Assembly: GCA_030628225.1 (NCBI GenBank)
Contig: DAOVRJ010000114.1
Coordinates: 1 to 7,705 of the forward strand
Direction: 5' to 3'
Length of the DNA: 7,705 nt
Origin: Candidatus Zixiibacteriota bacterium
GTDB lineage: Bacteria; SM23-81
Shown: positions 3,257-7,705 of the stretch, piece after piece
Position numbering within the stretch: position 1 is the first letter of the stretch
Layout: every line of letters starts with the position of its first letter
Notes under the pieces: model-generated
Seen by the model: the letters and a program-made list of their open reading frames with translations, nothing else
The model's database searches: none
What the model was told of the DNA's origin: nothing
Translations under genes and position numbers: made by a program

Positions 3257-4597
3257 TTAGACTGCCACCCTCCCATCCACATCCTGGGGCACCGGAACGT
3301 TCATCAAACTCATGATGGTCGGCAAAAGATCCATGATCTGCACATCTTCCCGGATTATCTTTTTGCCGCGGACGAACAAAGAGGCGTCGTCGTAAGTGTG
3401 CATGCCCACCAGAGCCGTCTTCTCGGTCAAGCCCTCCTTCTTGACGTCGGCCTTGAGATCAAATCCATCGAAGGGAATAGCGAACAGATCCGCCGCGGAG
3501 GAAAGATTTTCTCCCCGATAGATCTCCTCTCTCCTAAACACTTTCTGAATCACCTTCTCTCCCGTGTCCGGGAGGTGGAACCCCAACAGCTCTTCAGCAA
3601 CTTTCTCCCTCACTTTTTCATAATTGGACGGATCCACGCCGCCTTTGGGTTCCCGCCCTTTCAAATTTATATAGACACGCCCGGGAATGAGGGTGAAGGC
3701 CTGGGAGCTGGAGTGGATATCCCCAAGACCTGCCGGAGGGTTCTGCTCGAATTTCAGCAGTCCCCTCTCCACCAGATATCGACTGAGGTTCACCTCTTGC
3801 TTGATGGTGCAAAAACCGTGGTCGGACATCAGAATAAAGGTCACCTCATCTCCCAGCCTGCTGTTCAGATCACCCAGGATCTCGTCGATCTGATCATAAT
3901 ATTCCAGAAATGCCCGGGCATACCGAGGGTGGCCCTGCTCCATGTGTTCCCACATAAAATGGTTGATCCTGTCCGTGCCCATGATGTGCAGGTGAAAATA
4001 ATCCCAGGGCTCATGATCCATAAAATGGTACATGGCCTGGACCCTCTTCTCCAATGTGAGGCGCAGATCCTCCAAGAACTTGTCTAAAGACTTCCGGGCC
4101 AGAGCGGCATCGGCGTCGATCCGGTAGTCCATTTGCTCCAGTTGCCCGGAGATTTCCTGGGGAAAGGTGGCCTTTTCCAGGTTGGTGGCCAAAAAACCGG
4201 AGACTAAAATCCCATTGACCTGCCTGACTGGATAGGTGACCGGCACGTTGACCACCACCACTCTTTTCCCCCGCTCGCTGAGAATCTCCCATAGGGTCTT
4301 GCTGGTCATGTTCAGCGAGGTCGGTATAAAAACATCGTAGGAGTTGGGACGATGATCCACGAAACCGAAGATGCCGTGTTTTGCCGGGTTTTTTCCGGTC
4401 ATAAATGTGGACCAGGCCACCGATGAGATAGTGGGATAAACTGATCTCATCCTGGTGAAGGCACCCTTTTCAACCAGCCTGGCCAGGTGAGGAAACCGCC
4501 CCTGAGCTATCTGGTTTTGCAGAAAGCTATGTGGCACACCGTCGATGCTGAGAACGAAAACCCGGCGCTTCTTACTCCTGAATTTCAAAAAGGCCAT
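3257..4597 (-). CDS. Cytosolic AP-superfamily phosphohydrolase/phosphodiesterase, COG3379 type (paralog 2)
   Basis: Predicted metal-dependent phosphohydrolase or phosphodiesterase of 446 residues, from the alkaline phosphatase superfamily branch that includes type I phosphodiesterases and COG3379. The ligand set looks complete: Asp19 in VLSIDG; a Ser/Thr nucleophile region YPTISSVAWSTFMTGKNP, with Ser58 aligning with the nucleophile Thr of nucleotide pyrophosphatases; Asp209 and His213 in GTDRINHFMWEH; Asp259-His260 in MSDHGF; and His400 in GMHT. The family block INLKGREPKGGVDPSNYEKV lies near 310-329. There is no signal peptide or membrane segment, since the N-terminus is basic and runs straight into the first beta strand, so it should act in the cytosol. 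The ATG is preferred over an in-frame GTG at 4609 because AAGGAG overlaps that GTG but sits 11 bases before the ATG. It follows the CysC-like gene by 39 bases. The substrate is unknown; nucleotide sugars, lipid-linked intermediates and sulfonucleotides are all possible. Confidence 0.87.
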   Translation of the reverse strand: MAFLKFRSKKRRVFVLSIDGVPHSFLQNQIAQGRFPHLARLVEKGAFTRMRSVYPTISSVAWSTFMTGKNPAKHGIFGFVDHRPNSYDVFIPTSLNMTSKTLWEILSERGKRVVVVNVPVTYPVRQVNGILVSGFLATNLEKATFPQEISGQLEQMDYRIDADAALARKSLDKFLEDLRLTLEKRVQAMYHFMDHEPWDYFHLHIMGTDRINHFMWEHMEQGHPRYARAFLEYYDQIDEILGDLNSRLGDEVTFILMSDHGFCTIKQEVNLSRYLVERGLLKFEQNPPAGLGDIHSSSQAFTLIPGRVYINLKGREPKGGVDPSNYEKVREKVAEELLGFHLPDTGEKVIQKVFRREEIYRGENLSSAADLFAIPFDGFDLKADVKKEGLTEKTALVGMHTYDDASLFVRGKKIIREDVQIMDLLPTIMSLMNVPVPQDVDGRVAV

Positions 4598-4608
4598 GTT
4601 CCTGCCCA

Positions 4609-4614
4609 CTCCTT
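4609..4614 (-). promoter_or_regulatory. Ribosome binding site deciding the start of COG3379 paralog 2
   Basis: AAGGAG on the minus strand lies 11 bases before the ATG at 4597. It overlaps the alternative in-frame GTG at 4609, which therefore cannot use it. This removes four residues from the longest possible product. Confidence 0.6.
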
Positions 4615-4636
4615 CTTTTCCGACTGCGAAATGTGC

Positions 4637-5272
4637 TTAGAGATATCCGAGATCCTCCAGCCTTTTCTGGATCTTCTGCTCCTCTTCCTTGGAGTAAACC
4701 TGCTCATCCTCTGTTGAACCGCTCTGCTTGGCTGTCGTTGTTGCAGCCGGAATATACCCGAATTCCTCAAGCTTGTGGAGGACCGTATCCCGGCATTGCT
4801 CCGGGGTGGCCTCAGCGACCTTTAAAACGATCTCCGGATGCCGGGGAGCTTCATACGGATCGTCCACCCCGGTGAAATCCTTGATCTCCCCGGCCCGAGC
4901 CTTCTTATACATGTCCTTCACATCTCGCTGCTCGCAAACCTCCACGGGGCAGTCCACAAATATCTCCACAAAGTTGGTCGTTTCCTTCCTGGCATTGTTT
5001 CTCGCTTTAATATACGGTGACACGAAAGAGACCAACACGGCCACGCCGTTTCTGCTCAACAATTTGGCCACGAAGGTCACCCGCTCGATGTTCTTGTCTC
5101 TATCCTCCTTGGAAAATCCCAGATCACGGGTCAGGCTCTGCCTGACGATGTCTCCGTCCAGCCGCTCAACCCTCAAACCTCTCCGTTTCAGCTCCTCGGC
5201 CACCAGATCGGCCACGGTGGTCTTGCCGCAGCAGGGGAGCCCAGTAAACCATACGCAACATCCTTGTTGCAT
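4637..5272 (-). CDS. cysC: Adenylylsulfate kinase family protein (CysC-like) with a C-terminal tail
   Basis: APS kinase family protein of 211 residues. The classical reaction is ATP plus adenylylsulfate to PAPS, the sulfate donor for sulfotransferases, in the cytosol. The sequence shows a Walker A loop GLPCCGKTT (11-19), LDGDIVRQSLTRDLGFSKED (38-57), the family Ser85 in SFVSPYIKARNNARK, FVDCPVEVCEQRDVKDMYKKA (105-125), and the APS-site loop GEIKDFTGVDDPYEAP (128-143). The two cysteines in the P-loop replace the common Gly-Ala or Ser-Gly and are unusual. The kinase domain ends near residue 174 (KLEEFGYIP). After a linker rich in Thr, Ser and Lys comes an extra tail, YSKEEEQKIQKRLEDLGYL. GAGGAGGA lies seven bases before the ATG. 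It sits between two COG3379 genes (gaps 34 and 39). CysC-like kinases in capsule loci can have other substrates, for example the Campylobacter cytidine diphosphoramidate kinase, so PAPS synthesis is likely but not certain. Confidence 0.9.
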   Translation of the reverse strand: MQQGCCVWFTGLPCCGKTTVADLVAEELKRRGLRVERLDGDIVRQSLTRDLGFSKEDRDKNIERVTFVAKLLSRNGVAVLVSFVSPYIKARNNARKETTNFVEIFVDCPVEVCEQRDVKDMYKKARAGEIKDFTGVDDPYEAPRHPEIVLKVAEATPEQCRDTVLHKLEEFGYIPAATTTAKQSGSTEDEQVYSKEEEQKIQKRLEDLGYL

Positions 5273-5279
5273 CTTGAAA

Positions 5280-5287
5280 TCCTCCTC
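5280..5287 (-). promoter_or_regulatory. Strong ribosome binding site of the CysC-like gene
   Basis: GAGGAGGA on the minus strand, seven bases before the ATG at 5272, is the strongest Shine-Dalgarno that leads to a gene in this window. It lies inside the 34-base gap after the upstream phosphohydrolase stop, so it can reload ribosomes within the operon. Confidence 0.7.
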
Positions 5288-5306
5288 GCTTACACCTCAT
5301 TCGAGA

Positions 5307-6692
5307 TCAGATGATAGATTTTCCCTCCATATCCTCTGGAACGGACAGATTGAAGAGCCGCAGTATAGTGGGGGCCATGTCCATGAGATGGAGTCCTGAT
5401 TTCCTGCCCGCCGCAAGTCCTGAATTGTTCATGATGAATATGCCGTGCTGAGCGTGATTCGCATCGTCGGGACCAGTGTCATTCTCAGAAGTGCGGATGG
5501 TCCCGAATCCCACGCTGCCCACAGAACGCCAGGTCAGATTGCCGAAGTAAATTATCAGATCCGGGGCCACGTTCTTCACCTGGGGATAGATATCTCGGGG
5601 CCTGAAAACCCTGGTGTTGATGTTCGCACCGTTCTCATCCTCTATGGCCTCCAACTTGGCGATGAGCTCATCCCGAACCTTCTCGTAGTCCTCAGGATCG
5701 ATGACCCCCTGAGGCTCCCGACCCTTCACGTTTAGAAAGAGTCGGCCATAATAACCTCCGGACCCCCAGGCTTTGGTGTGCGACCAATCGATGTTATCGT
5801 TCTTCAGGGGCGTAATCTCACTGGGCATAGATTTCAGCTTAAGATAGCCCTCTCTCATCAACCACTCGTTGATGCAAATTCCCCCGTCCATGCGCTGAGC
5901 CCCGTGGTCAGAAACGATGAAAACCACGGTCTGCCGATCTACCTTGGTCAACAACTGGCCAACCTGCTGGTCGACATAATGGTAATACTCTTTGATAGCA
6001 TTTTCGTATGGTGAGCCCGGCTTATATTTCTTGTGTTGCTCATCGAAGTATTTCCAGAGACCATGATGAATCCGGTCGATGCCCATCTCCACGAACATGA
6101 AAAAGTCCCACTCCTTGGTCTCCATGAGATAGTTGACTACCTGGAAGCGGTTTTCGGTCATCTCGTAAATCTGCTTAATTAGATAATCCTTATCATCGGT
6201 GCGGAACTTCTTCACGTCGAGAATAAACTCTCCCGCAACACCCTCAATTTCCCCTTTCAGCTCCGCGGGATAGGTATACTGAGAGTCAGTGTCCGGCGCC
6301 AGAAAACCAGATATCATACACCCATTGAGCGGTTTCGGCGGATAAGTCTGCGGAACACCCACCAGAATGCTCTTTTTGCCGGCCCGGGAAAGAATGTCCC
6401 AAACGCGATCGTCCTTCACCGCCTGAGATGTGGCGAAGTACATCTCATCATAAGAGTAATTCTTTCGGTTGCGAAAACCGTAAAAACCCAGCACACCCGG
6501 ACTTTTGCTGGACATCATAGATGTCCACGCCGGAACGGTAATGGGCGGGATGGTGCTCTTTAACTCGCCATAGACGCTCTGCCCTAAAATCTTCTTAAAA
6601 TTAGGCAGCTCATCGCCCCAGCGGTCAAAAAGCAACTGGGGTGTGGCACAGTCCAGACCGATGACCAGCACTTTCCTGCCATTGTTAATCAA
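5307..6692 (-). CDS. Cytosolic AP-superfamily phosphohydrolase, COG3379 type (paralog 1)
   Basis: Predicted phosphohydrolase or phosphodiesterase of 461 residues, a diverged paralog of the gene at 3257-4597. Visible motifs are Asp14 in VIGLDCATP (most relatives have Gly where this has Cys15); STIPPITVPAWTSMM with candidate nucleophile Thr52; GFYGFRNRKNYSYD near 69; VWDILSRAGKKSILVGVP near 97; metal ligands Asp206 and His210 in GIDRIHHGLW and Asp262-His263 in VSDHGAQ; the block LNVKGREPQGVIDPEDYEKV near 320-339; and His416 in NHAQHGIFI as last ligand. It has no signal peptide and is expected in the cytosol. The TTG at 6692 is chosen because AGGAAGGGGG lies eight bases upstream. A TTG at 6734 would abut the upstream stop and add 14 residues, but has no good ribosome site. 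It ends in TGA, which argues for standard stop-codon use in this genome. The substrate is unknown. Confidence 0.87.
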   Translation of the reverse strand: MINNGRKVLVIGLDCATPQLLFDRWGDELPNFKKILGQSVYGELKSTIPPITVPAWTSMMSSKSPGVLGFYGFRNRKNYSYDEMYFATSQAVKDDRVWDILSRAGKKSILVGVPQTYPPKPLNGCMISGFLAPDTDSQYTYPAELKGEIEGVAGEFILDVKKFRTDDKDYLIKQIYEMTENRFQVVNYLMETKEWDFFMFVEMGIDRIHHGLWKYFDEQHKKYKPGSPYENAIKEYYHYVDQQVGQLLTKVDRQTVVFIVSDHGAQRMDGGICINEWLMREGYLKLKSMPSEITPLKNDNIDWSHTKAWGSGGYYGRLFLNVKGREPQGVIDPEDYEKVRDELIAKLEAIEDENGANINTRVFRPRDIYPQVKNVAPDLIIYFGNLTWRSVGSVGFGTIRTSENDTGPDDANHAQHGIFIMNNSGLAAGRKSGLHLMDMAPTILRLFNLSVPEDMEGKSII

Positions 6693-6734: not shown

Positions 6735-7705
6735 CTATTGAATTGACTGAATTGACGAACTTTTTATGCTAGTAAGAAAATCATAGTACTCCTGGCTAAC
6801 TACCTCCCAGGCAAAGGTGGTCTCCGCTACCCGACGACCTCGTTCTCCCATTACTCGAAGTCTCGAACTGCCCATGTTATAAGCCTGCCGAATGGCTTCT
6901 GCCAACCCGGATGCCGATGGATGATACACCAAACCGCAATGGTATTTGCTGACAAACTGAGCCGTCTCCTCCACATCCGTGACCAGAACAGGTTTGCCCA
7001 GGGCAAGATATTCGCCGAACTTGGTGGAAAAACTCACCACATTGGCAGGGTGATGTGGCCTGCACGTGACGAGAATATCTGCCGCCTGAAGGTGTCTGAT
7101 AAGCTCTTGGAGCGGAAGATAATCAACCAATTCAGCCTTGGAACCTAATCTTTCTTTGATCTTTTCCTTCCACTTCCTGTCATATTGGGTTTCGCGAAAT
7201 CCCATAAATTTCAGTTTTATATCCAGATCTTGCAGCATTTGCCCCGCCTCGATGAGAAAGTCAACGCCCTGCCAGGCTTGATAAGCTCCAGCATAGCAGA
7301 CGGTGAAGGTGCCGTTTTGGGAAACACCAACGGGTCTGAACATCTCCGTATCCACGCCGTTACGAATCAATCGGATTTTTTTTCTGGGGACACCATGGGC
7401 CAGAAGCAGCTCTTGGAGGGGCCGGGAGACGACCAGATGATAGTCCGAATGATGTATAGCCACCCGTTGCTCCAGTAAAAACTCGAGGAGATGAAAGGTG
7501 TTTCTGAACTTGTTTAATTTCCACATCAGGAGCATCTCGCTGATTACATCCCCGTGCATATCGTGCACCACAGGAGCCTGGAAGTGTCGCCTAAAGAGGC
7601 AAAAAGGAAAGGCTACGTAAGGATTTCCAGCATGGATCACATCATAGCCCCGCAGTCGTGGAAGCAAGCTTGAGAACTGGAGCGGAAACAAGATGGGGGG
7701 CGTCC
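6735..7705 (-). CDS. GT4-family glycosyltransferase, 5' end missing
   Basis: Glycosyltransferase with the GT-B fold, family GT4, likely adding a sugar from a nucleotide donor to a growing cytosolic glycan or lipid-linked acceptor. The frame is open to the right edge, so the true start lies outside. The 322 visible residues lack perhaps the first 60-90. Visible blocks are YDVIHAGNPYVAFPF and VVHDMHGDVISEM in the N-terminal half, then IRNGVDTEMFRP, FTVCYAGAYQAWQGVDFLIEA, the donor-site region STKFGEYLALGKPVLVTD near residue 235-250, and CGLVYHPSASGLAEAI. The first Glu of the classic E-x7-E motif is absent while the second is kept in GEYLALGKPV, as in GT4 members with a TK-x-x-EY-x-A-x-GKPV pattern. 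No membrane segment is obvious. It ends in TAG, 42 bases before the first COG3379 gene, and is the most upstream operon member visible. The sugar is not predictable. Confidence 0.9.
   Translation of the reverse strand, partial: TPPILFPLQFSSLLPRLRGYDVIHAGNPYVAFPFCLFRRHFQAPVVHDMHGDVISEMLLMWKLNKFRNTFHLLEFLLEQRVAIHHSDYHLVVSRPLQELLLAHGVPRKKIRLIRNGVDTEMFRPVGVSQNGTFTVCYAGAYQAWQGVDFLIEAGQMLQDLDIKLKFMGFRETQYDRKWKEKIKERLGSKAELVDYLPLQELIRHLQAADILVTCRPHHPANVVSFSTKFGEYLALGKPVLVTDVEETAQFVSKYHCGLVYHPSASGLAEAIRQAYNMGSSRLRVMGERGRRVAETTFAWEVVSQEYYDFLTSIKSSSIQSIQ

Follow-up and report, generated by a model that had tools for sequence, protein, structure and literature searches.

The window, by which we mean the whole stretch of 7,705 nucleotides analysed, is the entire contig C270 of a 2.34 Mb MAG in 306 contigs. 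Completeness of the MAG is 92%, which bears on the lack of a PAPS reductase match given below for this genome. All genes of the window are on the minus strand (Table 1). At its centre are three genes, AlkP-A, CysC and AlkP-B, whose reading frames are intact and free of internal stops, with gaps of 34 and 39 bases between them. AlkP-A starts with TTG preceded by GGAAGGGGGG, and CysC and AlkP-B start with ATG preceded by AGGAGG and AAGGAG, respectively. An earlier note on this DNA had described a CysC-like kinase gene between two intact genes for cytosolic AlkP proteins, with short gaps and their own ribosome sites, and the Pfam matches, reading frames, metal ligands and nucleophiles bear this out. 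The dead third copy mentioned there is a real AlkP remnant, but it lies outside the interval 3257-6692 in which it had been placed. It corresponds to the N-terminal part of an AlkP protein. Its tblastn matches fall in two frames interrupted by stops, and it is nearest to the AlkP proteins on contigs C201 and C121 of the same genome, not to AlkP-A or AlkP-B.

Table 1. Features of the window, with the basis of each assignment where there is one
Feature	Position	Strand	Remarks
GT4 glycosyltransferase	6735-7703	minus	cut by contig end
AlkP-A, type I phosphodiesterase/nucleotide pyrophosphatase family	5307-6692	minus	PF01663, 163 bits
CysC, APS kinase with C-terminal extension	4637-5272	minus	PF01583, 212 bits
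C-terminal tag of CysC, VYSKEEEQKIQKRLEDLGYL	4640-4699	minus	common to RHH and some AlkP proteins
AlkP-B, second, distinct type I phosphodiesterase family member	3257-4597	minus	PF01663, 162 bits
Remnant of third AlkP gene, with frameshift and stop codons	2769-3201	minus	tblastn
GT2 glycosyltransferase	1753-2691	minus	
GNAT acyltransferase, WecD-like	858-1745	minus	
WecE-like aminotransferase	3-716	minus	cut by other contig end

Relatives of the window CysC were taken from public genomes, giving 80 loci; the window's own phylum is represented in this sample by four genomes only. In 19 loci the gene directly 5' of CysC is AlkP-A; AlkP-B lies on the 3' side, directly or at a short distance, in nine sampled loci as well as in the window, and in six loci besides the window both flank the kinase gene. 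The loci come from Zixibacteria, Chloroflexi, Aminicenantes, Acidobacteria, Cloacimonadota, Coatesbacteria and Mcinerneyibacteriota. The adjacency of CysC to AlkP genes of the COG3379 type, for which a count across genomes had been proposed, is therefore recurrent and is not confined to the window genome. Zixibacteria SM23_81, the nearest relative, has the genes in the order Sat, GT4, a further AlkP, AlkP-A, CysC and AlkP-B. Nucleotide alignment of this genome to the window extends only over 3257-6680 (77% identity), so that the conserved block stops exactly at the three genes.

CysC scores above the cut-offs of both NF002059 (245.6, cut-off 244) and TIGR00455 (220, cut-off 138.7), and its best PDB relative is the SAT/APS kinase 2gks. 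From its sequence, we regard it as a canonical APS kinase with a complete domain. The sulfate adenylyltransferase gene, Sat, is in the same locus in all 17 AlkP-A/CysC loci in which this could be tested, from several bacterial phyla, and was found in 27 of 29 genomes. In SM23_81, Sat (PF01747) is upstream of AlkP-A, CysC and AlkP-B in the same cluster. The earlier note had seen no sulfate adenylyltransferase, PAPS reductase or sulfotransferase and had argued against sulfate assimilation on that ground, but the window genome has a Sat, on contig C213. It is 81% identical to the Sat of SM23_81 and is flanked by the same BNR-type upstream gene and by a transposase. Sat is in the same operon in SM23_81 and in all testable relatives, and the contig ends limit what can be seen of this arrangement in the window genome; the argument from an apparent absence of Sat is an artefact of a contig only 7.7 kb long. 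The gene directly downstream of the Sat on C213 (L098, 1703-2674) encodes a DDE transposase, which may have cut Sat off from the other operon genes or interrupted the assembly. The earlier note had suggested PAPS as a product of the kinase, and there is good support for this in the canonical APS kinase domain, in the adjacency of Sat in relatives and in the lack of a PAPS reductase match in the window genome.

A counterpart of these genes is present in archaea. AlkP-A orthologues were found in ten Thermoplasmatota genomes, with scores of 505-686 bits (the remaining matches score 341 bits and below). Four Thermoplasmatota loci (L164, L165, L167 and L168) have the order RHH-Sat-DHH-AlkP-A-CysC, and their AlkP-A proteins are 47-52% identical to that of the window. 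A profile search confirmed the DHH gene in each of the four, and Pfam did so in L164 and L168. This order is that of the published Thermococcales sulfate-activation cluster. In P. yayanosii the genes run in the order CopG, ATP sulfurylase, DHH pApase, type I phosphodiesterase and APS kinase, with TauE adjacent, and a role in PPi degradation has been proposed for the phosphodiesterase (PMC8268124). TON_1705, which occupies the AlkP slot in T. onnurineus, is reported to be a pyrophosphatase (PMC4463584); its kcat is 2.1/s and its Km 18.8 uM, and the pH listed is 9.5 (PMC9653972). Additionally, in a study of a methanogen, the pyrophosphatase step was rate-limiting in a coupled Sat/APS kinase assay (PMC10322725). 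The statement that no pathway had been assigned to this gene set thus does not hold. Since the same order is seen in several bacterial phyla and in Thermoplasmatota, the arrangement is beyond chance.

Both hydrolases belong to PF01663, with the domain above cut-off, the metal ligands, the nucleophile and the fold of the family. The ligands and the nucleophile (T54 in AlkP-A; S62 in AlkP-B by motif alignment) are invariant across the relatives. In the tree, AlkP-A and the archaeal forms, joined by an outlying AlkP from archaea (L174), make up one clade (100/100) distinct from the other AlkP proteins of the window genome. AlkP-B forms a clade of its own (100/100) and, among the loci sampled, is seen only just after CysC. 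We considered that AlkP-B might be a simple duplicate of AlkP-A and rejected this because the tree separates the two. Sequence searches of the PDB gave no match for AlkP-A and only weak phosphonoacetate hydrolase matches for AlkP-B. AlphaFold models (pLDDT 90.3 for AlkP-A and 89.6 for AlkP-B) both best match the NPP/ENPP pyrophosphatase-phosphodiesterases, with Z 28.1, rmsd 3.0 and 329 aligned residues for AlkP-A, and Z 30.1, rmsd 3.4 and 338 aligned residues for AlkP-B (the latter result from VIA-align). The predicted fold common to both hydrolases does not fix the substrate. In the window genome, several more genes of the type I phosphodiesterase family follow one another on C201 (L099), and the product of one has the LGYL tag described below at its end.

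Taken together, the data suggest that the three genes are probably the downstream half of a PAPS-forming sulfate-activation operon in which AlkP-A acts as a pyrophosphatase and the PAPS serves sulfation. Sat would convert ATP and sulfate to APS and PPi; AlkP-A, as a cytosolic NPP-like hydrolase, would split the PPi and so pull the unfavourable Sat reaction forward; CysC would phosphorylate APS to PAPS; and the PAPS would be spent on sulfation rather than reduction. AlkP-B would then hydrolyse PAP, or excess PAPS or APS, in place of the archaeal DHH pApase. By analogy with the slot of TON_1705 and from its family, AlkP-A is likely to be a Sat-linked pyrophosphatase; the match to TON_1705 is one of gene order and family name.

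The role of AlkP-B is more tentative, and hydrolysis of PAP, PAPS or APS is suggested only weakly. Archaea remove PAP with the DHH enzyme, an orthologue of which is present in the archaeal genomes and in none of the bacterial genomes of the set. CysQ was above the TIGR01331 cut-off in none of the 29 genomes, and in the window genome not even a weaker match was seen. We found no described counterpart of AlkP-B, which is a candidate for this step. Some genomes with AlkP-A and no AlkP-B likewise have no recognised PAP phosphatase, which means that AlkP-B cannot fill this gap in every case. In most of the genomes that have AlkP-A alone there are genes of the inositol-monophosphatase family, whose products could act on PAP.

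The lack of a recognised PAP phosphatase in the bacterial genomes, and the fact that NPP-type folds bind AMP in solved structures, also fit a different division of labour, in which both AlkP proteins would be nucleotide hydrolases acting on PAP, PAPS or APS for recycling or control of the PAPS level, and PPi would be left to ordinary pyrophosphatases. We consider this rather unlikely, as pyrophosphatase activity has been measured for TON_1705, which has the same slot, and the archaeal loci have AlkP-A besides the DHH pApase, so that AlkP-A is not needed for PAP there.

The window CysC and the CysC of all nine AlkP-B loci end in a tag with the consensus EEExxIxxRLxxLGYL (more fully, a sequence near YSxEEExxIxxRLxxLGY[LIM]). 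Small RHH-like proteins encoded directly 5' of Sat in other lineages end in it as well, and so do some AlkP proteins, including one in the window genome. RLxxLGY[LIM] thus ends proteins of three unrelated families, APS kinase, small RHH and AlkP/sulfatase-type (4640-4699 in the window; L093, L086, L109, L125, L126, L132 and L133). Of the 7843 ORFs in the loci, 34 carry the tag, where shuffling of the C-termini gives an expectation of 0.02, and most of the mapped operons have it on either the RHH protein or the CysC extension. Among the RHH proteins tested, only that of the window genome passed the Pfam cut-off, the others falling below it; its gene is on contig C155 beside TauE and not beside Sat. 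Two Gemmatimonadaceae loci (L036, 11255-12814; L081, 7219-7917) have a second CysC-bearing ORF that is tagged and has no adjacent AlkP-B. A correlation between the tag and AlkP-B (Fisher p 2.7e-8, uncorrected) was not significant when kinship was counted, and it is not established because there are only two supported independent pairs. Searches of the literature for COG3379 together with APS kinase, or for the LGYL tag, yielded no useful paper. It is conceivable, though we would not favour it, that AlkP-B represents a class of PAP/PAPS phosphatase, so far unrecognised, on an alkaline-phosphatase fold and that the tag is a docking signal bringing CysC or the RHH protein to a shared partner in an assembled complex.

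For the use of the PAPS, we looked for reductases and sulfotransferases. Matches to the PAPS reductase domain PF01507 are lacking in the window genome and in 19 of the 29 genomes, and in most of the others they are only partial or weak. Sulfotransferases are present in 15 of the 29 genomes, including SM23_81, where one is on the same contig as the cluster. Inspection of the flanking genes, as proposed in the earlier note, placed a sulfotransferase within the cluster itself in L024 and L175; in the window genome, PF13469 had no match. Together, the lack of a PAPS reductase match and the sulfotransferases in half or so of the set (15/29) make PAPS for sulfation, not for reduction, the likely product in the window genome. 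Ordinary assimilatory sulfate reduction has Sat and CysC in common with the set, but we rejected it as highly improbable given that the window genome has no PF01507 match and most other genomes none or weak ones.

The earlier note had placed the three genes in a glycan locus, and glycosyltransferase and sugar-nucleotide genes do surround them. The WecE-like (3-716) and WecD-like (858-1745) genes suggest a dTDP-4-amino-4,6-dideoxy sugar as part of the surroundings. This link did not survive the comparison with SM23_81. Synteny ends at the three genes, and the GT4 proteins of the two genomes are not the same gene (26% identity), so we dropped the reading of the locus as a glycan operon. In SM23_81 (L003, 10309-16631), MbtH-like and nonribosomal peptide synthetase genes follow the operon where the window has glycan genes. 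Glycan decoration, in which the CysC relative would phosphorylate another activated nucleotide and the AlkP proteins would transfer or trim phospho groups of a glycan, has a parallel in the CysC-like kinase of Campylobacter capsule phosphoramidate synthesis, which acts on another nucleotide; with a canonical CysC, Sat adjacent in relatives and flanking glycan genes that are not conserved, we give it very little weight. Our preferred explanation, sulfate activation for sulfation, presumes a final sulfate acceptor, and because the glycan context is not conserved a glycan is only one possible acceptor.

The archaeal version of the sulfate-activation set has already been described. What is new is AlkP-B as a separate clade, the finding that no known PAP phosphatase is recognised in the bacterial genomes of the set, and a C-terminal tag that CysC has in common with Sat-adjacent RHH proteins and with some AlkP proteins. 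These data would give a large uncharacterised AlkP group (the COG3379 type, as the earlier note labelled it), so far unknown phosphohydrolases, a definite part in the sulfate activation of many uncultured bacterial lineages. The organisms that carry the set probably make PAPS for sulfation, and their PAP phosphatase is a testable gap. The tag, for which no description was found in the literature searched, offers a specific starting point in the search for a protein-protein contact.

Finally, the set can be compared with known systems. Like the Aquifex SAT-APS kinase (2gks), the window CysC has the full kinase domain, the P-loop and the APS-kinase motifs; it differs in about 35 extra residues that end in the LGYL tag. 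The two hydrolases share with NPP/ENPP and phosphonoacetate hydrolase of the AlkP superfamily the fold, the two-metal site and the Thr/Ser nucleophile. In contrast with these enzymes, they are cytosolic and operon-linked to Sat and CysC, and their structural sequence identity is 12-18%. Compared with the Thermococcales cluster (pych_17520-17570; TON_1704-1707), the window set has no DHH pApase and has AlkP-B after CysC, the tag is on CysC and not on an RHH protein next to Sat, and Sat is on another contig of the MAG. The two have in common Sat, the RHH (CopG) and TauE genes (in the window genome or its relatives), and a type I phosphodiesterase gene directly 5' of that for APS kinase, which in the window is orthologous to the archaeal one. 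Nor has an intact sulfate-reduction pathway been identified in P. yayanosii.
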